Assembly: GCA_022616555.1 (NCBI GenBank)
Contig: JAKEEG010000080.1
Coordinates: 1-41,604 of the forward strand
DNA length: 41,604 nucleotides
Direction of reading: 5' to 3'
From: Ignavibacteriota bacterium
Lineage (GTDB): Bacteria > Bacteroidota > Ignavibacteria > UBA10030
The translations under genes were made by a program, and so were the position numbers. Shown here piece by piece: positions 14,799-39,211 of the stretch. The notes under the pieces were generated by a model that had not been told where the DNA came from, searched no databases, and saw nothing but the letters and a program-made list of their open reading frames with translations. Position 1 is the stretch's first letter. Every line of letters begins with the position of its first letter.

Positions 14799-14828
14799 AA
14801 AAAGCACCGCAGCAATGCGGTGCTTTTT
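14799..14828. terminator. Bidirectional terminator at the strand switch
   Basis: AAAAAGCACCGCA and TGCGGTGCTTTTT form a perfect 13-bp stem with a GCAA loop. It has A/T tracts on both sides and so works in both directions. It sits between the convergent TonB receptor gene and the anti-sigma kinase gene, whose TAA lies within the stem (14827-14829). Confidence 0.92.
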
Positions 14829-15333
14829 ATCTCAGCCGTTTCAGGTTAATGACCAGCTCAACCTTTGAGCCTTCTTTTCCGAAGCTATAGTTCACTTCAT
14901 CCATCAGCTCTTTCATCAGAAACACACCGCGGCCGCTGGTCTTGAATAAGTTACTATCATCAATTGGGCTGGGGACATTCTCGGGATTAAACCCCGTTCC
15001 CTGGTCTTGTATCGTCACGGTGAGGCTCTCGTGTTTCTTGAAGAGGATCGTCAGGAATACTTTTTTTCGTGGGTCAGATTTATTACCGTGCATGATGGCG
15101 TTGTTGACCGCTTCAGTAGAAGCAACCAACAAGCGGTAAAACGTTCCGTCGTCGAGTTTGGCAGCAGCATTCACTTGATCGAGGAATTGCTCCACATGGG
15201 CAATTTCCTTCGGAGTGCTGACAAGCTCAATTTCAAACTTCTTGGGCTCAAATTTCTTGGGCTCAATCTTCTTTGGCTCAACCTTCTTTGCAGCAGTTTT
15301 CGTCTTCTTGCCGGACTTTTTCGCCAATGGCAC
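14827..15333 (-). CDS. RsbW-like anti-sigma factor / serine kinase (HATPase_c_2)
   Basis: The 168-residue protein has the GHKL ATPase fold of anti-sigma kinases such as RsbW and SpoIIAB. The N box is STEAVNNAIMHGNKSD (residues 72-87), the G1 box DQGTGFNP (110-117) and the G2 part SGRGVFLMKELMDEV (133-147). Such proteins bind a sigma factor or phosphorylate an anti-anti-sigma antagonist. An unusual basic N-terminal tail (residues 1-34) is made of repeats of KKxEP/KKFEP. No antagonist or sigma factor is present nearby, so its target lies elsewhere. The start is a GTG at 15333 (a TTG at 15327 is also possible), 5 bp after the stop of the barrel protein, so it is the last gene of the operon. Confidence 0.85.
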   Translation of the reverse strand: MPLAKKSGKKTKTAAKKVEPKKIEPKKFEPKKFEIELVSTPKEIAHVEQFLDQVNAAAKLDDGTFYRLLVASTEAVNNAIMHGNKSDPRKKVFLTILFKKHESLTVTIQDQGTGFNPENVPSPIDDSNLFKTSGRGVFLMKELMDEVNYSFGKEGSKVELVINLKRLR

Positions 15334-15338
15334 CCCCG

Positions 15339-18196: not shown

Positions 18197-18205
18197 TATG
18201 CACAA

Positions 18206-23600: not shown

Positions 23601-24618
23601 CAACGCTCAGGTTAGTTCCTGTGGCTCCTGGCGGAAGCGACGACAAGGCAAACGTGACGTTCACGCCAGCAATCGGATTACCATACGCATCAGTCACCGT
23701 CACAACAAACGGCGCGAGTGTTGAGCCGGGGGATGCGCTTTGGCCGCCGCCTGAGGTTGAGTCTGCCTGGCTCGCAATCCACTCATACGCCGTTGAGCCC
23801 AACGGGTTTGTCACATCAGAAGCCGTCCACCTGCTTAATGCTTTGACGCCAGAGAGTGTTATTGTTTGCAATGTAGTATTAACCGTGCCGCCTTGTCTTC
23901 GCCACGTCGTTCCGCCATCGATCGAACGCCAGAGCTCCAGTGTATTTTCATCTAAGCCGTTAAGCTCGGAGCTCGCATACGCAAAGACGATATCCATATC
24001 AAGGTTTGAATTCACTTTCGGCGTTACATCGTAATATCTCAAAATCGACTGATTGCCGTTCCCGGTCGAAGCAACGCCCGAGACACGGTTCACCGTTGTT
24101 GACTCCGGAGCAGTGCCGGACCAACTCAGCGTTAAGCCCAAATTGCCATAATTTGAAGTCGTCGTTCCGCCTGAAAGGTCAATTGTTTTGCTGATGCTGC
24201 CTGAGAGATATCCATTCTCAATCAAATTGCCCATCAGATTAACCGTTGCTCCGGGTTCAACTTGTAGCGTTACTGCCGGCACGATGACGATATTCTGAAG
24301 AACAGTAAAGCTTCCTCCCGTAGTTGTTTTTGTTCCCGAACCCGTTAATTGTAAGTTTCTATATTGCGTAGCCGAAATAAGCTGGTTATCGCCAAAATAC
24401 TCAAAGATGCCGTCGACAGGCGGCAAGTTGGATGCGTTCCCTTTGACACGAATCGTGCCTAAGTTATTGATCGTCCCGCCGTTATTATTAAGGTTTTGTC
24501 CAAACCCGGAGGACGTTAGCATCATCGCGGCAAACAATAGTACACCGCTGAGCCGGCGCAACGCGCCGCCCGTCCGCAACAATGACGCTATCTGTATTAT
24601 TCGTATCAGAGCATCCAT
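20605..24618 (-). CDS. Large secreted Ig-like-repeat protein with dockerin and type IX sorting domain
   Basis: The 1337-residue protein has a signal peptide (LSGVLLFAAMMLTSSGFGQ, about residues 23-41). An N-terminal module (about 42-290) starts NLNNNGGTINNLGTIRVKGN. Seven tandem Ig-like repeats of about 106 residues follow (about 295-1030; Big_1/invasin type). Each has a PLxxxFVVxVxDxxGNPVxGVxVxFA strand pair, ATGQxLS, then xTDxxGxAST-LTLGNxxGxYxVTAT and PVTFxATA. Next are a dockerin-like pair of calcium loops (about 1029-1090: DPNNDANINIADL, DVNRDSTVDILDV), a beta-sandwich (about 1095-1245) and a C-terminal sorting domain (about 1250-1337: NFPNPFNP, IEIFNQLGAKVKTL, GVYYYRLVSG, KKMLLLK) for type IX secretion. 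It is likely an adhesive surface filament or scaffold. No ribosome-binding site is obvious. Confidence 0.88.
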   Translation of the reverse strand: MDALIRIIQIASLLRTGGALRRLSGVLLFAAMMLTSSGFGQNLNNNGGTINNLGTIRVKGNASNLPPVDGIFEYFGDNQLISATQYRNLQLTGSGTKTTTGGSFTVLQNIVIVPAVTLQVEPGATVNLMGNLIENGYLSGSISKTIDLSGGTTTSNYGNLGLTLSWSGTAPESTTVNRVSGVASTGNGNQSILRYYDVTPKVNSNLDMDIVFAYASSELNGLDENTLELWRSIDGGTTWRRQGGTVNTTLQTITLSGVKALSRWTASDVTNPLGSTAYEWIASQADSTSGGGQSASPGSTLAPFVVTVTDAYGNPIAGVNVTFALSSLPPGATGTNLSVVNATTDADGQVSTALTLGNLNGTYTVTATATGLAGSPVSFSATATGSSLIASSIVKVSGDAQQDTVDNMLAPFTVRVLTSGGDPVPGVPVEFAITGAPLNATGQLLSVDSVVTDVNGEASTILTLGNKVGNYAVTATPTPDTLSGSPVTFTATATNGVAATMLLVSGNNQSGTVNQPLAQPVTVAIHDAGGNNVPNHTVNFAISQVPSGATGQSLSDAVVMTDSNGIASTILTLGSENNTYTVTATSTGLANSPVTFTATASGAAAAVIQVVSGDDQSTTVLTPLPDSLVVVVLSAGGNPIAGDTVNFGVQSVPTGATGSTVSAAFVVTDSQGRAAVQAILGDKAGEYVFSATRDGLQNSPIMFSASATSGEARSITELIGNGQSNVILTPLTDSLAVVVRDSTGNPVQGVAVTFALQSVPAGTTGQQLSTQNAVTNANGIASTQLTLGNKVGQYIVTAASAGLTGSPLTFSATATHGAAASIAEASGNDQSAIILTQLSDSLAVVVRDIGGNVVPGTAVAFAVQSVPTGATGQQLSALNAITDSNGIASTRLTLGNKVGPYNVTATSSGLTGSPVTFSATALPGNVASVVMVSGNNQEKPILTTLDTAFVVRVLDVGQNTVPNAAVVFAITDTPNGATGQSLSEDTVITSVVGEAATVLTLGNEIGEYQVTAFVQGVDSVVFVARTEIIVGDPNNDANINIADLTQVIDHVIGKTMLTGTDSVQADVNRDSTVDILDVEMIKQHLLGVAPLFEGPSVRVSATGGPLSLKVQGITATVEGEFEPTDFGLRFSLLNNVPVKGIQIVLKFRTQPPADLGNAAITFSRASAMAIPIHVSGNEVRLVASNNDNTPIEPGAGAIFRMPSQLKNLDDVEEMELLISTGEVVHQAVGGSIQIGTVTTVPLSFKLEQNFPNPFNPNTTIEFEVPDSPTGFTPVTIEIFNQLGAKVKTLVFGEYEAGRHRVIWNSTDEDGSPSATGVYYYRLVSGSFRSAKKMLLLK

Positions 24619-25723
24619 AATGTTTACCGTGTCGTGTTAAGTAAGACCAATTCCATACTTCTCACACCATGCCTTTGGAACGAGCGCACAGATGCGCCCG
24701 TACCGAAGCCACAGTGAACTTCCTTGTGCAGCTCCGCGCAATTGCTTGTACCATTCCGGAAGGAAGGCGAGAAGGAGTGAACTCGCCTTCCCTTCGGTGT
24801 ATTTGCGATATCCGGCGATCTACGTACCGCTGGTTTGAGCGGACCAGTGTCCATAAATCTCCGTCAAGATGTTATTTGTCATAGCATCATATACTATACA
24901 GTAAGTGCATAATTCCCCGTTGCGACGACGCTGCAGAGGGAGAAAGGAGTACACAACTCCCCCTTGCGACGTGCAAAAGGTTTACGTCTCTTCGTACTAT
25001 TTCTGACCGCGATGTACACACTCCACCCGTAGGCGGTCGACACCACCTGTAGCGGTTATGCGTGTGCGTACTCCCGCCACCCGGCCCACCAGCGCGTAAG
25101 GCGCTTCGGCGAGCAGGCTCGCGTGATCTCCGCATATAGTTCCTTAGCTTCTCAACATACTCATCCATTCCAGCCTCATATATGCTCGCGGTTGTGACTA
25201 TTTTTTAAATGCTGTCATGTTTCTCTTAGCCACCTTAGAACGTTTAAGTACAGAGTACTTCCTTCGCGATGCTGAACATCACGACAAGACGGACTTCTCC
25301 CTTGCACTCGTGAGAGCGGTGGAGCGTGTTGTTGAAAGGGCGTACCTCTCCCTACCGCTCGCCGGCCTTGTTTCCAGGGCGGACTTATCCCTATGCAGTT
25401 TTTAACTACCTGCCGGAGCGCTACGCGCTCAGGCAAGCCTGCACGACTGCAAGCCGAGTTGTCGGGCAATCGCACGTAATTTCGCACGAGCCGATTACCT
25501 GAACCCTCGCCCGTGATTGCGCTACGCGGCAATGGAATGCCGACCAAGCGCGACCGCGGACGCGATCCGTCTATGTTATATTGCATATCAACGTCCTCAC
25601 ATGGTGTACCAATGCGTACTCACAGTGTGGTCTATCCTACATCATAGACCCACTACCCCAATGGGTGCTCATTCACGCACTACGCGTAAGAGCAGTGAGC
25701 ACCCCATGCGCTATGTGAGGATG
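24619..25723. other. 1.1-kb gene-free stretch rich in inverted repeats
   Basis: No convincing gene is present: all frames give arginine- and proline-rich translations without known domains. Instead there are many hairpins: GGAAGGCGAG / CTCGCCTTCC (24762-24771, 24782-24791), AGCGC / GCGCT (25091-25095, 25101-25105), CGAGC / GCTCG (25110-25121), TGCC..GAGCGC-TAC-GCGCTC..GGCA (25411-25435) and the multi-stem block at 25586-25730. Several share the loop trinucleotide TAC or GTA flanked by GCGC. The stretch is the leader or promoter region of the leftward 1337-residue gene. It could be decayed repeat elements, a structured leader, or both. Confidence 0.6.
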
Positions 25724-25730
25724 TTATATA
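25586..25730 (-). other. Predicted multi-stem RNA structure after the 485-residue gene
   Basis: An outer stem pairs CCTCACAT (25595-25602) with ATGTGAGG (25713-25720) and extends outward with one bulge. It encloses a hairpin GGGTGCTCA / TGAGCACCC (25663-25671, 25696-25704), a second hairpin GTGGTCTAT / ATAGACCCAC (about 25627-25652) and a short GTAC / GTAC stem. The whole forms a multi-branch junction of about 140 nt. On the leftward transcript it begins at the stop codon of the surface-protein gene. I cannot match it to a known riboswitch; a palindromic mobile repeat is the main alternative. Confidence 0.45.
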
Positions 25731-27181
25731 CCGACCGTGATCGTGCCGTTGTTCGTAATGGCGCCGCCATCCAAGTTAAAGTCACCATTGACGTTAAGAC
25801 TTGACCCGGCATCCACGAGCGTCAAGCTGGTCGTGGAAGGCAAAGTCAAGCTGCCAGTCGTCGTCACAGTTGCGCCAGAGCCAACTTCCTTCGCCGCCGC
25901 GCCTGTTCCGCTCTTGCGCGAAAGGACCAAGTTGGCATAGGTACCGGCTGTGATCGTCTGGGTCACAGCGTCGCCACCGTTATACCCAACTGTACCAGTC
26001 GAGAACACAACGCCGTTCGTGGCACCGCCGAAGCGCATCGTACCGCCACCGGCTTGCGTAAGCGAAGGACCGGACAATGTAAAGGTATCCATATCCGTGG
26101 TCGCCGTACCATTGTCAAACGAACCGCCCGTTTCGATCGTTACGTTGCCAGTTGCATTCTTGATACCGGCACCGGACATGTTGAGGTCATAGTACGTGGC
26201 GCTTGCAACAGACTGGTCAACTGTACCGGTGTAGTTTACTGCTGTACCGGAGTTATTAAGCGTCAGGGTTCCGCCGCTGTTGATCAGGTCCTGCGCAAAG
26301 TTTGCTTGACCAGTTCCCGTCAACGACAACACGGCACTGCCACCGCTGTTCGTCACATCTCCTGAGAACGTAAGCGAACCGATGCTGGCAGTAATTGTGC
26401 CGGCATTCGTCAAAGCAGCTTGCGAGAAGGTAATCGTCCCGGCTGCGGTGGTCTTGCGGATCGTGCCCGCGTTTGATGTCACATCAGCAATCGTCGCACC
26501 GCCTGTTCCCGTCACATCCAGGATGTCAGATGCGGTGACGGAGATTTGGTCGAGACTGCTTGCGCTGGTACCGTTGATCGTCAGGTTCTCGTCAACTGCA
26601 AGTGCACCGCTTGCGGCAGTGTGGCTAACAACAGCCGCCGTCACCGCACCGCCCAAGTCTTTCGCACCTGCACCAGAGAGACCTAGCGTGCCGCCATACG
26701 TGGTGCCAAGCAACGTTTGTGCGGAGCCGCCCGTGTAATTGACTGTGCTAGACGCATTCGTGGCATCTAGAGTTCCGCTGCTGGTCAGCGACGTTGTGCC
26801 GGCAAAGTTCAGCGTAAACGCGTTAACAACCCAGCTTGAGCTGGCTCCGCTTACGTCAAATGCCGTGTTCACAGTCGTGGTGACGCGTTGATTCTTTGAC
26901 GTTCCACCGCTGGCATTCAGCGTTGTAAAAATCAACGGCTGAGGGGTACCATCATCAGTGCCAATATCCTGCGCCCCCGTTCCATTGACACCCACGGTAC
27001 CACTGAATGTATATGTTCCCGTAGCGCTGCCGTTATTAATGTTACCTTTCACGTTCCAGTTACCACCTAACGTACCACCAGAACCGTTCAGGTTTAAGTC
27101 TTGCCCCATTGCCATGCTGGCAACCAAGATGAGGCTGAAGAAGGCGACAAGCGCCCGGCGAATGAATTGTGTGCTGCTCAT
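25724..27181 (-). CDS. Secreted beta-strand-repeat protein (about 485 residues)
   Basis: From ATG 27181 the protein has 485 residues with a signal peptide (FIRRALVAFFSLILVASMAMGQ). The mature part starts DLNLNGSGGTLGGNWNVKGN, similar to the mature start of the 1337-residue neighbour. It consists of repeating Gly/Thr/Ser/Asn-rich beta strands of the pattern xGTxTF / GTGAQDIG / NLxLSGAG, as in beta-helix surface proteins. It ends LNVNGDFNLDGGAITNNGTITVGI with no sorting domain. AAAGGAG lies 7 bases upstream of ATG 27181. A second in-frame ATG at 27286 has an equally good AAAAAGGAG, and would add 35 hydrophilic residues before the signal peptide; the short form is preferred for export. Function unknown. 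Confidence 0.75.
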   Translation of the reverse strand: MSSTQFIRRALVAFFSLILVASMAMGQDLNLNGSGGTLGGNWNVKGNINNGSATGTYTFSGTVGVNGTGAQDIGTDDGTPQPLIFTTLNASGGTSKNQRVTTTVNTAFDVSGASSSWVVNAFTLNFAGTTSLTSSGTLDATNASSTVNYTGGSAQTLLGTTYGGTLGLSGAGAKDLGGAVTAAVVSHTAASGALAVDENLTINGTSASSLDQISVTASDILDVTGTGGATIADVTSNAGTIRKTTAAGTITFSQAALTNAGTITASIGSLTFSGDVTNSGGSAVLSLTGTGQANFAQDLINSGGTLTLNNSGTAVNYTGTVDQSVASATYYDLNMSGAGIKNATGNVTIETGGSFDNGTATTDMDTFTLSGPSLTQAGGGTMRFGGATNGVVFSTGTVGYNGGDAVTQTITAGTYANLVLSRKSGTGAAAKEVGSGATVTTTGSLTLPSTTSLTLVDAGSSLNVNGDFNLDGGAITNNGTITVGI

Positions 27182-27369
27182 GACTGCACTCCTTTTTGTA
27201 ATGGTTTGTGAATTGTGTGAATTATGTTTCTTTACTGCCGTTTCGGCTTTAGTGCCGTTGTTTCTTACTGCAGGTACTGTTTCCATGACAAATGCTCCTT
27301 TTTGTATTTTGTTATTTATGAATCGTTATTTGTAACCTTCTACAACTGAGACCATGCTTGTTAGAGAAC

Positions 27370-27418
27370 CCGACTGCTCAAGTCGGAGACAAGGATGGCC
27401 GAAGCTCCGAGCTACGGC
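27370..27418. repeat. Twin hairpins between two surface-protein genes
   Basis: CCGACT-GCTCA-AGTCGG (27370-27386) and GCCGAAGCTC-C-GAGCTACGGC (27398-27418; one A/A mismatch) stand side by side, in the same style as the pair at 7241-7280. They look like a dispersed intergenic repeat. They lie directly behind a strong ribosome-binding site, so they may have been inserted into an older gene start. Confidence 0.55.
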
Positions 27419-27441
27419 GGGCGAACTGGATTGTGTCTCAT
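27412..27441 (-). other. Orphan ribosome-binding site and 9-codon reading frame
   Basis: GGAAAGGAGG (27447-27456 read leftward) is an almost ideal Shine-Dalgarno sequence six bases before an ATG (27439-27441). The frame reads MRHNPVRPP and stops at TAG (27412-27414) inside the twin hairpins. It begins 43 bp after the stop of the 2184-residue gene. It is either a leader peptide for the next surface gene or the surviving start of a gene split by the inserted repeat. Confidence 0.4.
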
Positions 27442-27483
27442 TGATACCTCCTTTCCTATTGTTGATTGTGTGTTGGTCATTTG

Positions 27484-30400
27484 TTAGTTACCTACGTTTA
27501 CTGTGCCATCGTTCGTAAAGCCACCAACCAAGTTCACGTCACCGTTTACCTGCAAGACCACACCCATTCCGACGCTAGCCGAAGCTCCACTGCTCACCGT
27601 CAGATATCCTTGAACTGTAAACGAGTCGTTAATCGATTTGGCACCGGAGTTCGAGAACACAAGATTGCCGTATGTCGCGTTCGCTATCGTCTGAGCAGAA
27701 GAGCCATCGTATTCCGTTGTACCGCTCAACGCGAACGTAGTGAAGTTCGCCGGGAAGTTACTGCCCGTAACTCCGCCGCTCGAACCGCCTACAAGCAAGC
27801 TCGCCGTTGCGCCGAGCGTAAGCGTGCCGCCGGAAGCAGTCCGGTTTGCCGTGAGTGTGCCTAAATCAAGTGTGCTGGCGGATATCGTTAAATCGCCCAC
27901 GATGTCGATGTTGTTGGCGAGGATTTTCGTGCCGGTACCGGACACGGTCAGGTTACCGTAATCCTGCGAGCTATTGAGTACTTCAATCGTTTGATTGCCA
28001 CCCGCGTATTCTATCGTGCTCGTTACACCGATCGAGTGCGTCGAGAAGTTGGCGGGAATTCCACCTGTACCGCCGATTTTGAGTGAGGAGCCGTTGGCGA
28101 GCGTCAATGTGCCTCCCGCTGCGGTGCGATTAGCAGTGAATGTATCAAGCTCAAACGAACCGCCTGAAATCGTAAGGTCGCCGGCGATTGTGATGTTCGT
28201 AGCAAGCGACTTTGTGCCACCGCCTGAAATGGTCAAATTGTTGTACGTCTCTTCAGCGACTGTCTGCGTCCCGCTGGAAGCGGTATAACCGACCGTGCCA
28301 CCAGTGATTACCGTATCTGCCGCCGTTGGGAAATCCGCTTCGGTATTCAACGTTCCATTCGAGAGCGTCAGAGTGCCGTCGGCTGTCAACGAATTGCCGG
28401 AGAGTATAGTCAGCACGAGACTGGCGTGGTTGAGTGTGACGGAATTGCCAACCGCAGCGACGTTGATGTTGATCGTATGCGCGCCGTTCAGCTGAACGTT
28501 GTTTGTTGAGAGCGGAACACCGTTCGGGCTCCAGTTGTCGCCATCGCCCCAGTTACTTGTTCCTGCGCCGCCATCCCATGTCTTCAAACTGCTTGTGCCG
28601 GCTTCACCGAGTTGGTAATCACCATATCCGGTTACTCCCGTTACCTGCGTACTGGTCGCCGTCCTTGTGCCGACAGTCGGCGTCGTCCACGCCCCACCGC
28701 TATACCGCGCTGCGATGAAGATGTTCGGGTCAGCGCTTGCATCGATATCGCCGGCGACGAAATTAAAGACCGCGCTATAGCTTCCGCTCGTTACGATACC
28801 GTTGTTCGTCAGCGTCCATGTGCGGTTGACACTCTGCAGGTCATCAATACCGGACGTCACAATTTGAGCATGGTCTCCCGCAGCCGTACTTACAATAAGA
28901 TACCCGGCGGTGAGCACGTTGGTGTAGTCTACGATAACAGGCGCATACGTGGAGCCGCTGCCGACCTCAAAGGTGCGAGAGACAACTCCAAAGTTAAAGG
29001 CGAAATATTTCTCAAAGTTGCCGACAACGTGGCCGCTCGTACGAGAAACGGAACCGGTGGAAGTGATGGTAATTTTGTTCGCTCCGGTCTGGATGTTACC
29101 GGAAGTAAAGGTCAGCGATCCGGCGATAGTTACATCGCCCGAAAGCTGTATGCCGTTTGTGTTATCGATTGTCAAACCGACGTACGAAAGCACCGGCGTG
29201 GTTTGAAGCGACGAACCGTTGTAACGGATCGTTGCGCTATTTGTTGTCACGTTTGCAGAGGCTGGAGAGTTAATCGTGAAGTTCCCTGCAATGTTCGTCG
29301 TGCCTGCTGCAAATGTCTTCACGCCATCAGTGGTTAATGTCAAGTGGTGATAATCGATCTGGGCGACGTTCTGGCTTGACGATCCATTGTATTGGATAGT
29401 CGTTGAATTTGTGGTCGCGTTGGCTGCTGCCGAACCGGTTACCGTAAAGACGTTGGAGATGCTGCTCGTGCCTGAAACAAAAGTCTTCGTCCCTGAGTTG
29501 TCAAACGTCAGGTTATAGTAGCTGGCAGCTGCGACATCCTGAGCTCCGGACCCGTTGAAGGTTATCGTTGTGGAATTCGTCGTCGCGTCGGCAGTTGCAC
29601 CAGAAACGGTGAAGTTCCCGCGTATTTCCGTTGTGCCAGAGGCAAACGTCTTCGTGCCGGAATTGCTGAGCGTGAGGTGATGGTAGATAATTGCACGCAC
29701 CGTTTGCGCACCGCTGCCGTTGTAGTTCAGCGTCGTGCTGTTAGTCGTCGCATCGACAGTCACCAATCCCCCGACTGTAAGAGTATTGGCAATGCCTGTT
29801 GTGCCGGAAGCCAACGATTTCGTCCCTGTGCCGCTGAATGTCAGGTTATAATAACTTAGCGCGGGCACCGTCTGTGAAGAACCGTTAAAGTCTACTATCG
29901 TGCTGTTGGTTGTGGCATCAACAGTCGGGCCGCTCACCGTAAATGCAGCCCCAATCTGCGTTGTACCGCTCGCAAGTGTGCGTGTGCCTCCGCCGGAGAA
30001 TGTCAGATTGTTGTACGAAAGCGCCGGCACGTTTTGATTTCCACTCGAAACTGTGAAACCTACCGTACCGCCGGAGATGTTCGTCGTTCCGGTTACAGTC
30101 GGGAAATCTGCCGCCGTGTTAAACGTACCGCCGGTGAGACTCAAATTACCGGAGAGCGTAAGCGATTGGCCTGAGAGAATATTCACGACAAGCCCGCCGT
30201 TGTTAACCGTCATCGAGTTTGCTTCGGCATCGGTATCGATATCGACTGTCACCGCGCCACTGAGGTTCACGTCATCAGTCGAGGTCGGAACACCGTTGGG
30301 ATTCCAGTTATCGCCGTCACTCCAATTATTGGTAGCGGCACCACCATCCCACGTCTTGAGTGCTCCCGCAGACGCCTCGCCAAGCTGGAAGTCTCCAAAC

Positions 30401-33400
30401 CCGGTCAATCCGGTCGCCTGTGTGCTTGTGCCAGTAATTGTGCCGACGGTCGGCTGAGTCCAACTTCCAGCGTCGTATCGCGATACAATGAAGTTGCTTG
30501 TATTCGCCCCGCCATCAACATCACCTGCCACAAAATTAAACGTCGCGTCGTAGCTCGTAAAGACAATGCCAGAATTCGTCAAGGTCCAGTATCGATTCGC
30601 GCTCTTCGTGCCGTCGATGCCCGAGAGGAGAATTTGCGGGTGGTCGGTTCCGGTCGTACTCACAGTCAAATCCCCGGACGAGCTAACACCCGCAAATGCG
30701 GCATCCACCGGAGTGTAGTTTGTGCCGGAGCCGATTTCGAACGTGCGCGATGGTGTTCCCGTTGGGATAAATTTCTGGAAATTGCCAATAATGTGGCCGC
30801 TGGTGCGAGACACAGTTCCGGTTGACGCGATGCTGAGTGTATTGGCATTGGTAGTAATATTGCCAGACGTCAAAGTCAGCGTGCCGGCAATGCTCGCAGA
30901 ACCGCTGAGCTGGATACCGCTTGCGTTGTTCAGCGTGAGGCTTGAATAAGCAACTGCTGGGGTCGTTTGCATGCTCGACCCGTTGTATTCAATTGTGGAT
31001 GAATTCGTTGTGGCATCCGCAGTCGCTGGGTTATTGACCGCAAAATTTCCGGCAACCCGCGTTGTGCCAGCAGCCAGGGTCTTCGTGCCGCCAGTACTTA
31101 GCGAGAGGTGATGATAGTCGAAGGCAGCGACCGACTGCGCCCCGCTGCCGTTGTAGTTGACTGTGCTGCCTGTCGTTACGTAGCTGCCGGAAGTGAACGA
31201 AGCCGTAGGCGAGAACGTACCTGCTATGCCGATGGTCCCACTGCTGGCAAGCGTAACGTTGTTGGTCGTACGCGTATTACTAATGGTGAGATCATTGTAG
31301 TTGAAGGCGGGCACGGATTGCGCTGTTGTGGCATTGAAGTCCACCGTATTGCCTGTAGTGACATAGCCGCCCGAAGTAAAGCTCGCAATCGGGCTGAATG
31401 TACCGGAGATACCAACAGTGCCAGAGTTGAGCGTAACGTTGTTCGCCCCGCGAACACCGCGAATAATCAGATTGAAATAATTAAGCGCGTTGACTTCTTG
31501 CGGGTCGCTCGCATCGTAATCGACGGTTAATGCCGATAGATCTCGGTTCGTGATGGTATACTGACTCACGAAATCGGCAGTCGCAGCCGTGCGCGTCACT
31601 TTGACATTACCGCCGCCGGTCAGAGTTCCTGTTCCACCGACGGTGATGCTTTCAAACGGGATAATCGTTGCACCAGAGCCGACCGTTAAATTACCGGTAG
31701 CGCTGATATTGTTAAATACTTCAAAGCCGCTCGTGTTGTTCACTTCGAGGTTGTTGAACGCAAGAGTTGCCGTCGTTGAACCACTGATCGAAGTTGAGGC
31801 TGCGGGCGTCGGTGTTTGGAAACGAATCGTGCTTGAGGTTGTAAAGGAGAATGGGGTCGCCGCGCCAGTATTGATGAGCCAGTTTCCGTAAAACGTGTGC
31901 GTGTTGGACGTGCCGCCGTTAAAGGTGGCAGAACCTTGCAACGTAAAGTCACCGTTGACGGTCAGGCTGCCTGCAGCTGTCTTTGCACTCAGCGTTGAAG
32001 CTTTCAGGTGGTGGTACGCGCCATCACTCGGCGCAACGATCGTTTGTGCCGCGAGATCAGCATAGTCGACAGTATTACCTGACGCTGAAGCATTAAATGT
32101 TGCTACCGTCACTGTCGCTGCTGTGAAGTCCAAATTGCCAATCGTCAGGCTCGCATCGACTTCTTGCGTAAAGGTGCCGCTTCCGGCAAGGCTTGCCGCT
32201 GCAGTGAATGACATATCGTTGGTATAGGAACCAGTGACAGTAACGTTCGAGATTGTTAATGCTGAACTACCGCTGAGAGTCTTGCTCGTACCCGCTAATG
32301 TGTAAATACCAGTTCCAGAGGTAAACGTACCGTCGTTGACGATATTGCCGTTAATGGTTACTGCTTCATTACCAGAATTATTCCACGTGCCACCGCCATT
32401 GACTGTCAAATCGTTGAACGTCTTTGTGCCCGTTGCGCTCGTAATGTTAAACGTGCCGGTGATGTCCGTTAACCCACTCACGTCGAACGTGAATGCGCCG
32501 ACGGTCATCGTGCCGCCGCTTGAAACTGTGAGATCGTTGTTGACAGTAGTATTGGCACCGAGCGAGGCAGTACCCGGATTGTTGGAGATAACGAGGTCGT
32601 GATACGTTGTGCCCTTAATCGTCTGCGCGCCAGTGCCGATATAAGAAACAGTGTTCGGATTGGCTGTGGCAGTCATCGTGGTGATGGTTGTATTGCCACC
32701 GAGGTACAGCAGGGCATCTGTTGCTTGTGTCAATCCGCCCGTACCGGTCAAATTGCCGTTGACGAAAAGGACATTGTTGTTCGTTACCGTCACCCCCGTT
32801 ATCGTGACAGCGCCGTCAAATGTAATTGTCGATGTACCACCAAGCTGCTGAACGAGGGTCGTATTGAAGGTATAGGTTCCCGTTCCGGAAGTAAACGTTC
32901 CATCATTAGTAATACCGCCGCGCAGCACGATAGCGGAGTTTGCCGAGGAGTTATCCCATACACCTCCGCTTGTGAGAACTACTGGGCCTGCGAATGTCTT
33001 AGTTCCTGTAGCACTGGTGATATTCAGCGTACTGTCGATAATTGTGGAGTCGGTCACCGTAATAGTTCCACGACCCAAGGTATTGATACCGGACGGGACA
33101 TTGAGATTCCCGCTAACGGTGAGGATTCCAGTTGCCGTTCCGTCAATGATAGCGCCATTCATTATTACATCACCATTGATGGTAAACGTCTCTGCCACCG
33201 TATAAAGGAATGCACCGCCCGAGTTCATCACGATATCGCTAAACGTCTTGGTGCCAGTTGTGCTGCTAAAGGATAGCGTATCAGCAAGCGATGTTGTGCC
33301 GGTGACTGTCACCGTAAATGCACCCACCGCGACGTTACCTTGCGTGACTGTTAATGTTCCGCCGATGGTTGCGTTACCGCCGACTGTGACAATTGCACTC

Positions 33401-34038
33401 GAGCCGCTATTGTTGATTTCAAGATTGTCGTAGCTGTACGCCCCACCGGCTGTCTGATTTGCAATGCCATTATAGACAACCGTTCCACTACCGCTCGTCG
33501 TTAAACCACCACCGGTCATATTGCCGCCAACGTACAGCGTACCGGAGCCAGTCCAATCAATGTGGTGACGAGTCGCGGCGCTGTTCATGGTTATATTGCC
33601 CGTAATCGTCGCGGTTCCATTATTAATGAGAAGGATACAGTCTCTTGCGTTATTCCCCGAAGTTGCCATCGTCAACGCACCGGCTGTCAACGTCCCGTCT
33701 CCGACATCGAGGGTTTTATTAATTGTCCCAGCCGTTGCCGGATTCATGGTGATCGTGCCGCCTATGGTTAGGCTTTGGCCCGAGCTGATCGTTACCGTGG
33801 TATTCGTCGAGCCCGTGGCAAAGGTCAACGAAGCCGCTTCGGCAGCAACGTCAACAGTAGCTGACGCCCCGTTGGCGATCGTCGCTGCAGTGCCTGAGTT
33901 CGGAACGCCTGCAGACCAGCGCGCAGCGTCGCTCCAAAGACCCGTGCCGGAGAACGTCGTCTGCGCTACCGCAAACTGCGATGCGCTAAACGTCAATGCG
34001 ACGCCGATGAGAAGCGATATGTGACGTACTCTTAACAT
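27484..34038 (-). CDS. Giant secreted beta-strand-repeat protein (2184 residues)
   Basis: A signal peptide (LLIGVALTFSASQFAVAQ) is followed by three copies of a module with a WSxxxxWSxGVP core: GLWSDAARWSAGVPNSG (about 32-48), TWDGGAATNNWSDGDNW (about 1224-1240) and TWDGGAGTSNWGDGDNW (about 1815-1831). After each copy run arrays of about 50-60-residue beta repeats (consensus YNGSGAQTVxAxxYHHLTLS, GTKTxAxGTTxIxGNFTV). The first two arrays end in a distinct domain (about 1096-1219 and 1686-1812) that runs from SRTFEIGSG to GFGDFQLGEA. The plan is thus A-repeats-B, A-repeats-B, A-repeats. The C-terminus is QVNGDVNLVGGFTNDGTVNVGN with no evident type IX sorting domain, matching the end of the 485-residue neighbour. 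It is probably a long fibrous surface or extracellular protein. No transmembrane barrel is present. Confidence 0.82.
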   Translation of the reverse strand: MLRVRHISLLIGVALTFSASQFAVAQTTFSGTGLWSDAARWSAGVPNSGTAATIANGASATVDVAAEAASLTFATGSTNTTVTISSGQSLTIGGTITMNPATAGTINKTLDVGDGTLTAGALTMATSGNNARDCILLINNGTATITGNITMNSAATRHHIDWTGSGTLYVGGNMTGGGLTTSGSGTVVYNGIANQTAGGAYSYDNLEINNSGSSAIVTVGGNATIGGTLTVTQGNVAVGAFTVTVTGTTSLADTLSFSSTTGTKTFSDIVMNSGGAFLYTVAETFTINGDVIMNGAIIDGTATGILTVSGNLNVPSGINTLGRGTITVTDSTIIDSTLNITSATGTKTFAGPVVLTSGGVWDNSSANSAIVLRGGITNDGTFTSGTGTYTFNTTLVQQLGGTSTITFDGAVTITGVTVTNNNVLFVNGNLTGTGGLTQATDALLYLGGNTTITTMTATANPNTVSYIGTGAQTIKGTTYHDLVISNNPGTASLGANTTVNNDLTVSSGGTMTVGAFTFDVSGLTDITGTFNITSATGTKTFNDLTVNGGGTWNNSGNEAVTINGNIVNDGTFTSGTGIYTLAGTSKTLSGSSALTISNVTVTGSYTNDMSFTAAASLAGSGTFTQEVDASLTIGNLDFTAATVTVATFNASASGNTVDYADLAAQTIVAPSDGAYHHLKASTLSAKTAAGSLTVNGDFTLQGSATFNGGTSNTHTFYGNWLINTGAATPFSFTTSSTIRFQTPTPAASTSISGSTTATLAFNNLEVNNTSGFEVFNNISATGNLTVGSGATIIPFESITVGGTGTLTGGGNVKVTRTAATADFVSQYTITNRDLSALTVDYDASDPQEVNALNYFNLIIRGVRGANNVTLNSGTVGISGTFSPIASFTSGGYVTTGNTVDFNATTAQSVPAFNYNDLTISNTRTTNNVTLASSGTIGIAGTFSPTASFTSGSYVTTGSTVNYNGSGAQSVAAFDYHHLSLSTGGTKTLAAGTTRVAGNFAVNNPATADATTNSSTIEYNGSSMQTTPAVAYSSLTLNNASGIQLSGSASIAGTLTLTSGNITTNANTLSIASTGTVSRTSGHIIGNFQKFIPTGTPSRTFEIGSGTNYTPVDAAFAGVSSSGDLTVSTTGTDHPQILLSGIDGTKSANRYWTLTNSGIVFTSYDATFNFVAGDVDGGANTSNFIVSRYDAGSWTQPTVGTITGTSTQATGLTGFGDFQLGEASAGALKTWDGGAATNNWSDGDNWNPNGVPTSTDDVNLSGAVTVDIDTDAEANSMTVNNGGLVVNILSGQSLTLSGNLSLTGGTFNTAADFPTVTGTTNISGGTVGFTVSSGNQNVPALSYNNLTFSGGGTRTLASGTTQIGAAFTVSGPTVDATTNSTIVDFNGSSQTVPALSYYNLTFSGTGTKSLASGTTGIANTLTVGGLVTVDATTNSTTLNYNGSGAQTVRAIIYHHLTLSNSGTKTFASGTTEIRGNFTVSGATADATTNSTTITFNGSGAQDVAAASYYNLTFDNSGTKTFVSGTSSISNVFTVTGSAAANATTNSTTIQYNGSSSQNVAQIDYHHLTLTTDGVKTFAAGTTNIAGNFTINSPASANVTTNSATIRYNGSSLQTTPVLSYVGLTIDNTNGIQLSGDVTIAGSLTFTSGNIQTGANKITITSTGSVSRTSGHVVGNFEKYFAFNFGVVSRTFEVGSGSTYAPVIVDYTNVLTAGYLIVSTAAGDHAQIVTSGIDDLQSVNRTWTLTNNGIVTSGSYSAVFNFVAGDIDASADPNIFIAARYSGGAWTTPTVGTRTATSTQVTGVTGYGDYQLGEAGTSSLKTWDGGAGTSNWGDGDNWSPNGVPLSTNNVQLNGAHTININVAAVGNSVTLNHASLVLTILSGNSLTADGTLTLSNGTLNTEADFPTAADTVITGGTVGYTASSGTQTVAEETYNNLTISGGGTKSLATNITIAGDLTISGGSFELDTFTANRTAAGGTLTLANGSSLKIGGTGGIPANFSTHSIGVTSTIEYAGGNQTIEVLNSSQDYGNLTVSGTGTKILANNIDIVGDLTISASTLDLGTLTANRTASGGTLTLGATASLLVGGSSGGVTGSNFPANFTTFALSGTTEYDGSSAQTIANATYGNLVFSNSGAKSINDSFTVQGYLTVSSGASASVGMGVVLQVNGDVNLVGGFTNDGTVNVGN

Positions 34039-34159
34039 GCCTTCGGTTTAGAGTACACACTTCGCTCACACGGGGCCGTGCGACAACACGTCGATATGTG
34101 TTTTGAAATTATCAAGTGAGCTTCTGAAAAAAAGCTTTTTTTGGTTCAGCTCAGGCTTC

Positions 34160-34552
34160 TTACGCCGCCTGTATCGCTTCGCGCCTCGCCAGCTCGGTGC
34201 TGAGGTATAACTTCAGCGCATTCTTCATCGCGCTTTTGTCGATGAACCCATCCGCGGCATACTGCCACGCCTGCCGCCGGTACATGTCATCGCCATAGAT
34301 CGACAGGATGACCACTTTGGTCTCCGGCAAGCTCTGCTTGATTTCCTTTGTTGCCTCGTAGCCGTCACGTTTCGGCATCTGGAGGTCCATCAGCACAAGA
34401 TCAGGATGCAGAAGCTCTGTCTGCTCGATTGCTTCCGCTCCGTCTCTTGCTTCGCCGACGATTTCCACACCCGACTGGGTCTGTAGAAACGCCGACAGCA
34501 AACGCCGAAAACCCTCGTGGTCGTCCGCTACGAGAATTCGTAGTTTGTTCAT
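34160..34552 (-). CDS. Stand-alone receiver-domain response regulator
   Basis: This 130-residue protein is only a receiver domain. Acidic pair Asp10-Asp11, phospho-acceptor Asp56 (LVLMDLQMP), Ser84 and Lys106 (FIDKS) are all present, so it should accept phosphate. The start of the chain (ADDHEGFRR) is of NarL/FixJ type, suggesting that a regulator lost its DNA-binding part. It probably works as a phosphate carrier or sink or by protein contact. ATG 34552 is supported by AAAGGAG six bases upstream. It follows the other receiver-only gene by 41 bp. Confidence 0.9.
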   Translation of the reverse strand: MNKLRILVADDHEGFRRLLSAFLQTQSGVEIVGEARDGAEAIEQTELLHPDLVLMDLQMPKRDGYEATKEIKQSLPETKVVILSIYGDDMYRRQAWQYAADGFIDKSAMKNALKLYLSTELARREAIQAA

Positions 34553-34593
34553 TGTTGCTCCTTTGGTGATTGTGTAATGTGTATAGTTGATTG

Positions 34594-34974
34594 TCATTTG
34601 AAAAAAGTTTGTGCGTTCGCCTGCTGGATGGCGGCAACTAAGTCCGGCTTGAGCGAAGACTTGAGGATGTAACCGTCCGCATGCGCTTCATTCGCTTTAT
34701 TGCGATAGAACGGGCTATCGTGCGTCGTCGCGATGACAACTCTCGTCGCAGGCCAACGCTCTTTGATGATGCGCGTCGCTTCAAGTCCGTTCTGGTTGGG
34801 CATCGATATATCGATGAGTACCATGTCCGGGTGAAGCTTCTCGACTTGCTCGACAGCCTCTCTGCCGTCGGCAGCTTCGCCAACGACATTGATGTCAGGC
34901 AAGCGAGCAAGAAATTCGCTCACCGTGCGGCGAAAGCCTGCATGGTCGTCGGCCAAAAGAATTCGTAATGCCAT
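34594..34974 (-). CDS. Stand-alone receiver-domain response regulator
   Basis: A 126-residue receiver domain with Asp9-Asp10, Asp55 (LIDISMP), Thr84 and Lys105 (YILKSS), so it is complete for phosphorylation. It lacks an output domain. Its sequence start (LLADDHAGFRR) is close to that of the next receiver-only gene, pointing to duplication. ATG 34974 is preferred over an earlier start at 35106 because GGAGGG lies eight bases upstream and the domain begins there. It lies downstream of the NarL-type regulator, with the 7-2-7 dyad between them. Confidence 0.9.
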   Translation of the reverse strand: MALRILLADDHAGFRRTVSEFLARLPDINVVGEAADGREAVEQVEKLHPDMVLIDISMPNQNGLEATRIIKERWPATRVVIATTHDSPFYRNKANEAHADGYILKSSLKPDLVAAIQQANAQTFFK

Positions 34975-35118
34975 AAAAGCACCCTCCATCCCCCGATGTA
35001 AGTGATCAGTCAGAACGCGGTTTACCGCATTTTCTCGTGTAAAAAGTAGAGTTTTATGAGCTGGAAGGGTATGAAGTGAGAAGCGTATATTAGAAAATAC
35101 GGGCAACCACGTAGGGCA

Positions 35119-35136
35119 CTACGGTGAACACCGTAG
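35119..35136. promoter_or_regulatory. 18-bp dyad with NarL-type 7-2-7 geometry
   Basis: CTACGGTG-AA-CACCGTAG is a perfect inverted repeat. Its inner part TACGGTG-nn-CACCGTA has the spacing and TAC/GTA ends of NarL/NarP heptamer pairs. It lies in the 264-bp gap between the NarL-type regulator gene and the two receiver-only genes. A second, looser dyad CGTAT / ATACG (35084-35088, 35097-35101) lies next to it. The two-base centre is too short for an RNA hairpin loop, so a protein-binding site is more likely than a terminator. Confidence 0.45.
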
Positions 35137-35238
35137 CAGAAGAATTGCGAATGTGATTTCGCGGATTTTGTTAGAGATTACCGCGTGACGCAGAACACAA
35201 TGCGAGGGACAATCGTGGAAAAAAGCGTTTCGCGAATT

Positions 35239-35898
35239 TTACTTTCGGAGCAAGCCGTGTTCGACGGCGTAGCGGGCGAGCAACACAACATCATGAATGC
35301 CGAGCTTCTGCATGATGTTGGTGCGGTGTGTATCGACGGTGCGCGGGCTGATAAATAATTTGTCGGCGATTTGCTGGTTCGTCATACCCTCTGCGACCAG
35401 CGCGAGAATTTCTTTTTCGCGTTTCGTCAGCGGGCTATCCGACGACGAAACTTCAGGCTGTTGGGTTTCGCCACGTTTGATAAATCCCTCAACCATTATT
35501 TCCGAAACGCGCGTGCTGAAGAATTTTTCGCCCTTCGCGACTGCGCGTACTGCTTCGTAGAGCTCTTCGCGGCTGGAATTCTTAAGCACATAGCCGCCAG
35601 CTCCGGAGCGGAAAATCTGATAAATATATTCTTCGTTCTCGTGCATCGTCAGCACGAGCACGCGCGTTTCCGGGTAACGCTCGCGAATTAATTTCGTCGC
35701 TTCAATGCCGTTCATCTTCGGCATGGACAGGTCGATGATAACAACGTCCGGTTGGACTTTACGTGTCATCTCGACTGCCTCTTCGCCGTTCGTGGCCTCG
35801 CCGACAACGACAAAATCTTCATAGCTTTGCAGCAGTGTGGAGATGCCTGTGCGAATGAGTGAATGATCGTCTGCAATGAGTATCTTTATTTTTTTCAT
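35239..35898 (-). CDS. NarL/FixJ-type two-component response regulator
   Basis: The 219-residue regulator has a receiver domain (Asp10, Asp11, phospho-acceptor Asp56 in IIDLSMP, Thr84, Lys106) and a C-terminal LuxR-type helix-turn-helix at about residues 155-215 (LTKREKEILALVAEG, NQQIADKLFISPRTVDTHRTNIMQKL). It lies 20 bp downstream of the HisKA_3 kinase gene and is its clear partner. It would bind DNA as a phosphorylated dimer; candidate targets are the dyad at 35119 and the promoters of the neighbouring surface genes. Confidence 0.96.
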   Translation of the reverse strand: MKKIKILIADDHSLIRTGISTLLQSYEDFVVVGEATNGEEAVEMTRKVQPDVVIIDLSMPKMNGIEATKLIRERYPETRVLVLTMHENEEYIYQIFRSGAGGYVLKNSSREELYEAVRAVAKGEKFFSTRVSEIMVEGFIKRGETQQPEVSSSDSPLTKREKEILALVAEGMTNQQIADKLFISPRTVDTHRTNIMQKLGIHDVVLLARYAVEHGLLRK

Positions 35899-35918
35899 AG
35901 TAGTATCTTGTCGGAAAC

Positions 35919-38546
35919 TTATTTTTTTGCGAGCGGGATATCCACAATAATTGTCGTGCCTGCGCCCGGCGCCGAGTCTATCTCTATTGTGCCATGGAAC
36001 GATGTAGAGCGCTCTCGCATACCGACGAGGCCCATGCCGTGCCTGCCGTCAACGCTCGCCGTATACTCCGAGAGGCTAAACCCTTTTCCGTTGTCCTCCA
36101 CCGTAAGCCGTAGCCCATCAGCATGCATGATGACCTGCACGCTGACCTCGTTCGCCTCGGCATGCTTCGCGACGTTGTTCAATGCTTCCTGCACAATGCG
36201 GTAGAGCGTTACTTCGAGCGTCGGCTCCAACCGGTCGGATAAACCGTGTGTGCGGTACTCCACCTTAATATCCCGGCGTTTGGAAAACTGATCGCAGAGC
36301 AATTGAAGAGCCGGCACCAAACCGAAATCTTCCAGCACGCTCGGCATCAAATTGTAGGAAATTTCCCGCGCTTCAGCCATCGCAGAATCCAATAAGCCTT
36401 TACTGTCGTTCACATGTTTAATGGCGGAAGAATCCGGCGGTACATGGTCTTCAAGAATTTCCAAATTAAACTTGATCGCCGTCAACATTTGCCCGAGGCT
36501 ATCATGAATTTCCCTTGCAATGCGCCGGCGCTCTTCCTCCTGCGCCTCTACGCGGGCTTCGGAAAGCAGTTTGAGTTCCTGCTCGCTGCGCACGAGGTTT
36601 TCGTAAAGCTGGGCATTTGCGATGGCGATAGAAGATTTCTCCGACAACGATACCAGCAGGCGAACGTCCCTGTCGGAAAATGTGTGCAAGCTCCGAAATC
36701 CAACCACCAGTTGTCCCCTGATTTCCCCTTCCACTAACAACGGGAAGAATCCCGCCGAATAGACTCTCTCTGCTTGCAAAACCGGGAACCGCTCTTTATC
36801 CTCACCGGTACGATTTGACAAGTCATCCATAACGACCGGCTCTTTGGAGAGGATCACAGAAGACCTATCGTGAGTTAACCGGATGATGGGCTCATGAACG
36901 GAGGTGCTGTTGCCTTTGACACTCTTCCATGTATAAGCAGATTTGTCACTCTTGACCATCACCACACCGGCAAAATCAGCGCGGGTGAGCGACTTTGCGT
37001 TCAGCGAAATCGTGTCCAGAATACGCTGCAAGCCGACCATTGACACAAGTTTGCGGTCAATACTGCTGAGTGTTTCCTGCTCCCAGAGCCACAGCGCCTG
37101 TTCGCGCTCAAGCATCTTTCGGTCGGTGATGTCTCGGAACGACGCCTGCACCGCCGGCTTGCCGTTCCAGGTGATACGCCGGGCGTTGATTTCGAGGTCG
37201 ACAATCTTGCTGTGGCGCGTTAAGCCCTTCATTTCATAGTTGCGGAAAACCTCTTCACGAATTGTTTGCGGGTTCTCGCCAGTCAACACAAAAGGCCTGC
37301 TGGCAGGGGCTACCGAATCGGAGAAATCCGTCATTTTCATTAGCTCTGGCGACTCATACTCAAACACTTTCGCGGCCTGCTGGTTTACATAAACAAGCTT
37401 TCCATCCTGTACTATCACAATGCCATCCAGCGAGTTTTCAACAATATTCTGGTATTTTTCCTTTTGCTCCGGTGATTTCCGTTCTTTCTCGCTTCGCTCT
37501 GAAAGGTCGCGCATTGAGACAACAATCCCCGTAACCTGGCGCTCCTCTCCCCGCACTACCGATGCTGAGACCAACAATTTATGAGGCTGCCAGCCTCCGG
37601 TAAAATACTCGACCTCATAACTGAGTTTTCCTGTCTCAAGTAATTTTCTGGACGTCTCTTCCGGCAACGCACCGTTGAAAATAGATGAGAGAGGCTTATC
37701 GCGAAGTTCATGCTCCTCTCGGCCAAATAATTGCTCCGCTACCCTATTCGCCATCCGAATGACGCCCTTCTCATCCAAGACCACAATCGCCTCGCTCATC
37801 GCGTCGAGGATCTGCATCGATTGAATCGACGGTGCATGGTTTTCAAAACCGAAACGCCACACTGCCCTCGCAGAAAGCGCAATGAACAAGAGAACGGGAA
37901 TAAAGCCTAACGGGTAAAAATCTATCCCGAACTTCGGCAGTATATCTACAGCACCGACAAATGCGATCATCCACGCTAATTGAAACGCCTTGATACGCTT
38001 TTTATGAATACCGTCGGACGCTTTTCGGTATTCGATCGTATAGAGACGCATTGCCGCAAAAAGCACGGCGAAGAAAAAGAGCAGGAACGGAAGTCCCAGC
38101 TCGCCGTACTTTGGGTAATAGCCCCACGAATAATGATAGACTCCGCTTACGAGCTCATTCGTGTAGAAGCCAAGCAACGCGAAGACAACAGACGGAACCC
38201 ACATTGCCCAGAGCAGCCGTTTGTTTTCCGCGTGCACGCGCAAGACCGCTGCGGCAAATTGATAGATCGCAGGAGGTCCAAGCGGAATGATCAGATAGAC
38301 CGTGTTCGCCCACCAGAGAGCGGAGGCTTCATTTTGCGCGCAATACATCCACGAAAAGCAAAACAGCCAAGCAGTAAAAACTATAGTAAGAAAAAAGAAG
38401 GAGAGGCTGACGAGATAGATGCGCTCGCGGAACAGAATCAACAACCCGACAATAAATACAACAAGAGCGGCGGCAAACGTGGGGACGGCGTACGCGTTCA
38501 AGGAGTAGTTGGAAAGGTCGAACACCCGCGTCGCCATAAGAGTCAT
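35919..38546 (-). CDS. Hybrid-sensing membrane histidine kinase (7TM-PAS-PAS-GAF-HisKA_3-HATPase)
   Basis: The 875-residue kinase begins with seven membrane helices (about residues 15-235) of the 7TM histidine-kinase sensor type. It is followed by two PAS domains (about 245-355: AMSEAIVVLDEKGVIRMANRV; about 365-485: NSLDGIVIVQDGKLVYVN) and a GAF domain (about 505-650). The HisKA_3 dimerisation helix follows with phospho-acceptor His681 (RRRIAREIHDSLGQML), then a HATPase domain (about 780-870: EALNNVAKHAEA, DNGKGFSL, GMGLVGMRERS). This is the NarX/LiaS family that pairs with NarL-type regulators. A second ATG at 38537 is an equally possible start. The signal is unknown; it may be a small membrane-soluble or cytosolic ligand. 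Confidence 0.93.
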   Translation of the reverse strand: MTLMATRVFDLSNYSLNAYAVPTFAAALVVFIVGLLILFRERIYLVSLSFFFLTIVFTAWLFCFSWMYCAQNEASALWWANTVYLIIPLGPPAIYQFAAAVLRVHAENKRLLWAMWVPSVVFALLGFYTNELVSGVYHYSWGYYPKYGELGLPFLLFFFAVLFAAMRLYTIEYRKASDGIHKKRIKAFQLAWMIAFVGAVDILPKFGIDFYPLGFIPVLLFIALSARAVWRFGFENHAPSIQSMQILDAMSEAIVVLDEKGVIRMANRVAEQLFGREEHELRDKPLSSIFNGALPEETSRKLLETGKLSYEVEYFTGGWQPHKLLVSASVVRGEERQVTGIVVSMRDLSERSEKERKSPEQKEKYQNIVENSLDGIVIVQDGKLVYVNQQAAKVFEYESPELMKMTDFSDSVAPASRPFVLTGENPQTIREEVFRNYEMKGLTRHSKIVDLEINARRITWNGKPAVQASFRDITDRKMLEREQALWLWEQETLSSIDRKLVSMVGLQRILDTISLNAKSLTRADFAGVVMVKSDKSAYTWKSVKGNSTSVHEPIIRLTHDRSSVILSKEPVVMDDLSNRTGEDKERFPVLQAERVYSAGFFPLLVEGEIRGQLVVGFRSLHTFSDRDVRLLVSLSEKSSIAIANAQLYENLVRSEQELKLLSEARVEAQEEERRRIAREIHDSLGQMLTAIKFNLEILEDHVPPDSSAIKHVNDSKGLLDSAMAEAREISYNLMPSVLEDFGLVPALQLLCDQFSKRRDIKVEYRTHGLSDRLEPTLEVTLYRIVQEALNNVAKHAEANEVSVQVIMHADGLRLTVEDNGKGFSLSEYTASVDGRHGMGLVGMRERSTSFHGTIEIDSAPGAGTTIIVDIPLAKK

Positions 38547-38738: not shown

Positions 38739-39119
38739 TTACTTACCAATCAGCTTCTTATACGCTTCCGCATCAAGCAAGCCGGAGGTCTCACCCATGT
38801 TGCTCAATTTCACTTTCACCATCCAGCCTTTGCCGTAGGGCTCTTTGTTGACGAGCTCCGGGGTTGCTTGCAGGTCTTTGTTGATTTCAACAACTTCGCC
38901 GGAGATGGGGGCGTAAAGGTCGGAGACGGCTTTCACCGCTTCAATCGTGCCGAACGTCTTACCTTGCGCCAGCTTTGCACCGACTGCCGGTAGCTCAACG
39001 AAGACAACATCGCCCAGCTCGCCTTGCGCATATTCCGTAATACCGATGACGCCGGTATCACCATCAATGCGGATCCATTCGTGTTCTTTTGTGTACTTCA
39101 GGTCGTTTGGGAAATTCAT
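38739..39119 (-). CDS. gcvH: Glycine cleavage system H protein
   Basis: The 126-residue lipoyl-carrier protein shuttles the aminomethyl group between the P and T proteins of the glycine cleavage complex. The lipoylated lysine is Lys63 within GTIEAVKAVSDLYAP. The N-terminus (LKYTKEHEWIRIDG) and C-terminus (GWMVKVKLSN) are typical and the length is standard. No gcvP or gcvT is nearby. It lies 92 bp downstream of accC with a palindrome between, so it is probably a separate unit. No Shine-Dalgarno sequence precedes the ATG. Confidence 0.96.
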   Translation of the reverse strand: MNFPNDLKYTKEHEWIRIDGDTGVIGITEYAQGELGDVVFVELPAVGAKLAQGKTFGTIEAVKAVSDLYAPISGEVVEINKDLQATPELVNKEPYGKGWMVKVKLSNMGETSGLLDAEAYKKLIGK

Positions 39120-39186
39120 TGGATTGTAGGTTAAAGTTTATAGGTGATAGTTTTTTTAGATTACGGATTACAGATTGGGGTTTCAT

Positions 39187-39206
39187 GGGCGCAACATGTT
39201 GCGCCC
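39187..39206. repeat. 20-bp perfect palindrome behind accC
   Basis: GGGCGCAACATGTTGCGCCC is fully self-complementary and lies 5 bp after the accC stop on the leftward transcript. It may end the acc transcript or be a dispersed palindromic repeat. The bases toward gcvH (39150-39180) contain the imperfect direct repeat GATTACGGATTACAGATT. Confidence 0.55.
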
Positions 39207-39211
39207 CTACA

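Follow-up and report, generated by a model that had tools for sequence, protein, structure and literature searches.

The closest described systems come from five directions. Two-component systems of the HisKA_3/NarL type are represented by NarX-NarL and UhpB-UhpA, and single-domain response regulators by phosphate sinks, Spo0F, MrrA and EpsW. Cargo of the type IX secretion system (T9SS) carries tails of type A or of type B (an example of the latter is SprB with PorP/SprF), and each such tail is a whole domain, roughly 70-100 residues long. Beta-helix adhesins of the autotransporter and two-partner secretion (TPS) classes include HMW1, EtpA and Ag43, and arrest peptides of the RAPP type include ApdA, ApdP and CruR. 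Single-domain regulators can work by direct binding, for example to an exopolysaccharide-initiating enzyme (PMC12802240). ORFs with RAPP, placed ahead of export and TonB-receptor genes, bring ribosomes to a halt (PMC10951233, PMC12992588), and a proline pair preceding the stop codon makes problems at termination and tagging by tmRNA more likely (PMC3985003). In E. coli, an internal RPP causes no stalling by itself (PMC4176338), so any stalling at a mini-ORF ending in RPP would have to occur at termination.

The locus analyzed here lies in the 2.99 Mb genome (98% complete) of an uncultured Ignavibacteriota bacterium; the window, i.e. the whole stretch of DNA analyzed, is contig C36 of 41,604 nucleotides. 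All named genes are on the minus strand, in the order kinase, NarL regulator, REC1, REC2, GIANT, S and T9dock (Table 1). A preliminary description had reported a kinase, a NarL-type regulator and two receivers followed in one direction by secreted proteins of 2184, 485 and 1337 residues, and this succession is borne out by Pfam and by the coordinates. The interval proposed for it, 27484-38546, holds the genes from the kinase to the 2184-residue protein and leaves the other two outside. The three secreted repeat proteins are present as claimed; the 1337-residue protein is of another kind than the other two. Many genera have their genes in this order, which indicates that the arrangement is not due to chance; the locus is real and conserved. 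Seen as a two-component system it is ordinary; seen as a split fibre linked to the T9SS, containing a leader-peptide-like element, it is unusual.

Table 1. Features of the locus and their positions in the window
Feature	Position	Strand	Basis or remark
7TM-PAS-PAS-GAF-HisKA_3 sensor kinase, 875 aa	35919..38546	-	Pfam; family orthologues stand beside AccC-GcvH and NarL
NarL-type response regulator, 219 aa	35239..35898	-	Response_reg + GerE; adjoins the kinase in 26 family relatives
REC1, receiver-only	34594..35106 (likely ATG start 34974)	-	Response_reg; phospho-Asp, Thr and Lys in 22/22 copies
REC2, receiver-only, 145 aa	34160..34597	-	Response_reg; D-D-D-S-K in nearly all copies
GIANT, secreted repeat protein of 2184 aa, beta-solenoid, no T9SS tail	27484..34038	-	Structure model and fold matches
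GIANT C-terminal signature (...GGFTNDGTVNVGN)	27487..27561	-	One of only two own-genome matches of model A1
Shine-Dalgarno of the mini-ORF, AAAGGAG, strong	27448..27454	-	
Mini-ORF MRHNPVRPP-stop, between GIANT and S	27412..27441	-	Same site in 7 family genera; sole own-genome match of the pattern
Hairpin TCCGAC-TTGAGCA-GTCGGG	27369..27387	-	About 25 nt past the mini-ORF stop; same loop and place, other stems, in 6 other genomes
S, secreted beta-helix connector without T9SS tail	25724..27286 (485 aa from 27181; 520 aa from 27286)	-	
S C-terminal signature (...GDFNLDGGAITNNGTITVGI)	25727..25801	-	
Non-coding, unusually strongly folding 1.1-kb stretch from S to the base gene	24622..25722	-	z -8.5
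T9dock (base), 1337 aa: solenoid motif at the N-terminus, then seven Ig repeats (Big_1), dockerin and divergent T9SS-type tail	20605..24618	-	
T9dock N-terminal motif (NLNNNGGTINNLGTIRVKGN), directly after predicted signal cleavage	24433..24495	-	Alignments A3, A4

The kinase contains the Pfam domains HisKA_7TM, two PAS, GAF, HisKA_3 and HATPase_c and adjoins the REC and GerE regulator, which is the composition of a HisKA_3/NarL two-component system; this pairing had been anticipated, and the adjacency is kept across the family. The N-terminal sensor part of the kinase aligns only in G005 and G018, all other matches starting at about residue 200 or later, which indicates that the input differs: most genera have another sensor in place of the 7TM part. 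Directly upstream of the kinase, nearly all family genomes have AccC (biotin carboxylase) and a GcvH-like protein (38739-40552 in the window). Other conserved family neighbours are found at 14827-18205: an anti-sigma-like HATPase_c_2 protein, a 639-residue protein that matches no family, and a nucleoside hydrolase.

Among the 26 other family genomes with an orthologous kinase, the order AccC-GcvH-HK-NarL is kept nearly throughout. As a rule receiver genes come next (one or two, in some cases three), and after them a giant beta-repeat gene, a single S gene or a pair, T9dock and a beta-CASP gene. In 16 of 19 evaluable genomes, covering 10 genera, the gene directly 5' of the giant beta-repeat gene is receiver-only (present in G000, 001, 003, 005, 008, 012, 014, 015, 016, 018, 021, 023, 025, 026, 028 and 029; absent in G020, G022 and G031). 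In several genera about 11-14 kb are inserted between NarL and REC1, and the receivers still stand with GIANT. The insert (L031 10555-18729; also L033 and L059) encodes a row of small secreted proteins, an Ig-like protein of about 1000 residues and a 273-residue protein with weak similarity to WxL-interacting proteins; genes for a sigma-54 regulator and a small kinase lie alongside. The insert could be an undescribed pilus-like system. Orthologues of T9dock were found in 16 family relatives and in two genomes of another family. Receivers and T9dock seemed to co-occur weakly, in the strict sense, from genome to genome, but contig breaks at the repeats blur this picture.

Response_reg is the sole Pfam domain of both REC1 and REC2, and the positions of their starts and stops leave no space for a lost DNA-binding domain. 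Their phospho-site residues, D-D-D-T-K in REC1 and D-D-D-S-K in REC2, are kept in nearly all relatives. Being receiver-only, with the phospho-aspartate, the threonine or serine and the lysine in place, both belong with the single-domain response regulators and are, judging from these residues, phospho-competent. REC1 always has Thr, whereas REC2 has Ser, which makes them two lasting receiver types. The aspartate is lost in REC2 of G005, and G012 and G028 have a degenerate-looking receiver.

The preliminary description had this module control the surface genes, with the two receivers tuning the flow of phosphate. The neighbourhood is indeed conserved: kinase group and surface genes are neighbours across the family, and the possibility that related genomes never have the two side by side can be dropped. 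The common regulatory motif that was also expected did not appear, a 16-mer search upstream of GIANT, S and T9dock giving nothing above shuffles. G020 (96% complete) has AccC-GcvH-HK-NarL-REC1-REC2, then a 149-residue ORF, then BetaCasp, and yielded no T9dock orthologue, just a weak partial match. In two genomes of the same genus, G026 and G028, the gene immediately preceding T9dock is related to this 149-residue ORF, so most likely the regulators remained in place when the surface cassette was lost by deletion. Regulators without cassette are also seen in G022 (55% complete). Family f5 (G035 and G059) has the S gene and T9dock, with a GIANT-like gene complete in G059 and partial in G035, and no kinase beside the cassette in the stretch read. 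Because the regulators occur without the cassette in G020 and the cassette without the kinase in f5, control of the surface genes by the kinase is possible rather than established; we regard it as plausible. The same two cases, together with the missing common motif, are what would be seen if kinase, NarL and receivers regulated something else and were merely linked to the cassette within a conserved block running from AccC-GcvH-HK-NarL to BetaCasp. We take this alternative seriously while leaning against it, since the attachment of the receiver genes to the giant beta-repeat gene holds even across the large insert after NarL. That attachment to the cassette and not to the kinase, seen in several genera, may also be read in another way: REC1 and REC2 would act like CheY, post-translationally, on a secretion or assembly machinery and would not drain phosphate from the kinase. 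Direct binding by single-domain regulators provides a precedent, but G020 keeps its receivers after losing the cassette, and we consider such a role unlikely.

The surface proteins themselves were examined by domain, structure and fold searches. GIANT has no Pfam or NCBIfam match. Its repeat segment is modelled as a beta-solenoid (mean pLDDT 92.9), for which beta-helix adhesins and related proteins rank high in Foldseek (Z up to 13.4, TibA and Ag43 at about 11). The model of S is beta-helical and of low confidence (pLDDT 58), with strands from just past the signal peptide to the final residues; it matches Vag8 (Z 17.0) and HMW1 (Z 14.7), and the sequence of S has no match in the PDB. The 485-residue start of S is better than the 520-residue one because an in-frame Shine-Dalgarno there gives 'KRSxxM', in relatives too. 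No TPS (Haemagg_act) domain or autotransporter barrel was matched by Pfam in proteins P0001 or P0003. From the structure models and fold matches, the surface fibre that had been proposed is plausible as a beta-solenoid fibre.

Among the three proteins only T9dock has a T9SS-type tail, which follows its Ig-like repeats and type I dockerin; at the C-terminus of GIANT and S, a T9SS sorting domain is absent by Pfam, NCBIfam and sequence. The T9dock tail is divergent and scores below the cut-offs (Por_Secre_tail, 18.2 bits for a cut-off of 27; TIGR04183, 18.5 for 23), FlgD_ig being above its own; the motif PNPFNP...KKMLLLK is aligned in 12 genomes. Among giant relatives in other families of the order, T9SS tails are frequent and end in ...SGVYFYRL...KKMLLLK. 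SprA, a core component of the T9SS, is present in the genome (TIGR04189, 1104 bits, G000:C49). Residues ~1090-1230 of T9dock, between dockerin and tail, are conserved and cohesin-like by eye, with no Pfam match.

The gap between S and T9dock is hairpin-rich. It folds far better than shuffles, as does the same gap in five of six relatives tested, another family included (z -3.5 to -9.0); two coding controls gave z -0.7 and -2.5. The stretch has no sequence relative in 60 genomes, and Rfam gave no match in the window up to E 5. Two ORFs within it (25586-25215 and 25168-24887) have no family match and were taken as spurious.

GIANT and S share their ends. In the window's family both finish with ...G..hTNxGTITVG(x), and the signature NxGTITVG was present in all 30 complete GIANT/S-type proteins inspected, from 17 genomes. 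With the own genome left out, it was the top-scoring window of its protein in 18 of 25 scored cases, and model A1 of the signature matches only GIANT and S in the genome. Right after the predicted signal cleavage, S and T9dock begin with a similar motif, NxG..NxGTIRV, which is present in the T9dock alignment of 12 genomes. The order tip, connector(s), base is kept in many genera. Matching end motifs and a single tailed protein suggest a tip-connector-base fibre stacked end to end.

Downstream of GIANT, AAAGGAG and an ATG open a predicted ORF of nine residues ending Arg-Pro-Pro-stop, followed after 25 nt by a hairpin with loop UUGAGCA. The ORF has the form of a Pro-Pro-stop element, a short ORF with Shine-Dalgarno and a C-terminal proline pair; it lacks the RAPP/RGPP motif and has VRPP-stop instead. 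Its pattern occurs once in the ~3 Mb of the own genome. Equivalent mini-ORFs in the GIANT-S or S-S2 gap are MIIRPP (G005), MNSRPP (G012), MRYSNARPP (G031), MKNTIRPP (G015), MKTYQPRPP (G006) and MKYHNDHPP (G007), and f5 (G035, G059) has MKNRAPPQ... and MSKRAPPQ..., with exact RAPP. Over 294 genomes of the class, all ten in-frame RPP-stop matches adjoin surface or T9SS genes: among them are two MIRPP, both from one genome of another family, and, ahead of f5 surface genes, MRPRPP, MRNRPP and MDARPP. The two near-identical MIRPP mini-ORFs (L150 474, L161 1516) have a strong Shine-Dalgarno and lie just downstream of T9SS-tailed genes; those of f5 (L134 5305, L135 14469, L158 1521) have the gene of a helix-turn-helix regulator (MTEILFTT.D...GGHRKF) immediately in front of them, and large surface proteins follow. 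The hairpin, searched as NUGAGYA in 1.03 Mb of loci, is found at eight intergenic places in seven genomes, all just before S-type genes; of the seven family genomes in which the mini-ORF occurs, six have the hairpin too (exception G012). Eight permuted loops gave 0-4 matches each anywhere. Stems differ in sequence yet pair across genomes; pairing percentages are partly so by construction, because matches were chosen for pairing. What counts as evidence for the hairpin is its place, its loop and the permuted-loop control.

Two other readings concern these short elements. As surface proteins, GIANT and S would have to be exported, and with no tail of their own their strictly C-terminal signature might be a non-canonical export signal, of the T9SS or another route, and not a stacking interface. 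At ~10-25 residues, however, it is far from a whole-domain tail, and a similar motif stands at the mature N-termini of S and T9dock, where no export tail would be expected; this reading seems to us rather unlikely. Between GIANT and S, the hairpin alone might matter, for instance as a place where the RNA is processed or stabilised, the RPP-stop mini-ORF not being translated as a regulator. G026 has the hairpin twice and no mini-ORF, and in the window the folding of the entire mini-ORF and hairpin stretch does not exceed that of shuffles (z -0.06). We nevertheless judge it improbable, given a perfect Shine-Dalgarno and in-frame proline-pair stop at the same place in seven genera and the consistent company of surface or T9SS genes throughout the class.

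Our favoured reading, given a little less than even confidence, is a T9SS-linked surface fibre made in separate parts that stack by terminal rungs, under two-component regulation and with Pro-Pro-stop dosing of S. Kinase and NarL would set the transcription of the cassette, among other targets, and REC1 and REC2 would compete for phosphate or pass it on. Slow termination at the Pro-Pro-stop beside the hairpin may set the amount of S relative to GIANT. The parts would stack end to end via uncapped terminal rungs in the operon order GIANT-S-T9dock, and T9dock would carry the fibre through the outer membrane or hold it there. The more specific proposal, separately secreted beta-solenoid parts joined by matching terminal rungs, a tail on the last part only and a part ratio set by the mini-peptide and the loop-conserved hairpin, is put forward with greater doubt. 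If true, very large tail-less proteins could be exported and anchored in T9SS bacteria through stacking on a single tailed partner, and this rule could be tested on many giant proteins that lack annotation; RPP-stop mini-ORFs, for their part, would be an element of the ribosome-stalling type tied to surface-gene operons in several families of the class.

Compared with the described systems, the locus resembles HisKA_3/NarL systems in the domains and adjacency of kinase and regulator, and differs by two extra receiver-only proteins, a sensor part swapped between genera and a fixed place before surface genes. Its receivers are like single-domain response regulators in having no other domain and in their kept phospho-site residues, but they are NarL-type receivers in tandem ahead of a giant surface gene. 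With T9SS cargo it shares the divergent tail of T9dock, which scores below the cut-offs, and the presence of SprA in the genome, whereas GIANT and S are tail-less and have a short common C-terminal signature instead. The beta-helix fold, by structure comparison, is that of autotransporter and two-partner secretion adhesins; here separate genes make the parts, and Pfam finds neither barrel nor TPS domain. RAPP-type arrest peptides and Pro-Pro-stop stalls have in common with the mini-ORF a short reading frame that closes on two prolines and stands before genes for exported proteins; exact RAPP even occurs in the f5 relatives. Unlike ApdA, ApdP and CruR, the mini-ORFs have 5-10 residues and no signal sequence, end in R-P-P-stop in place of an internal RAPP, and lie inside an operon, followed by a hairpin.
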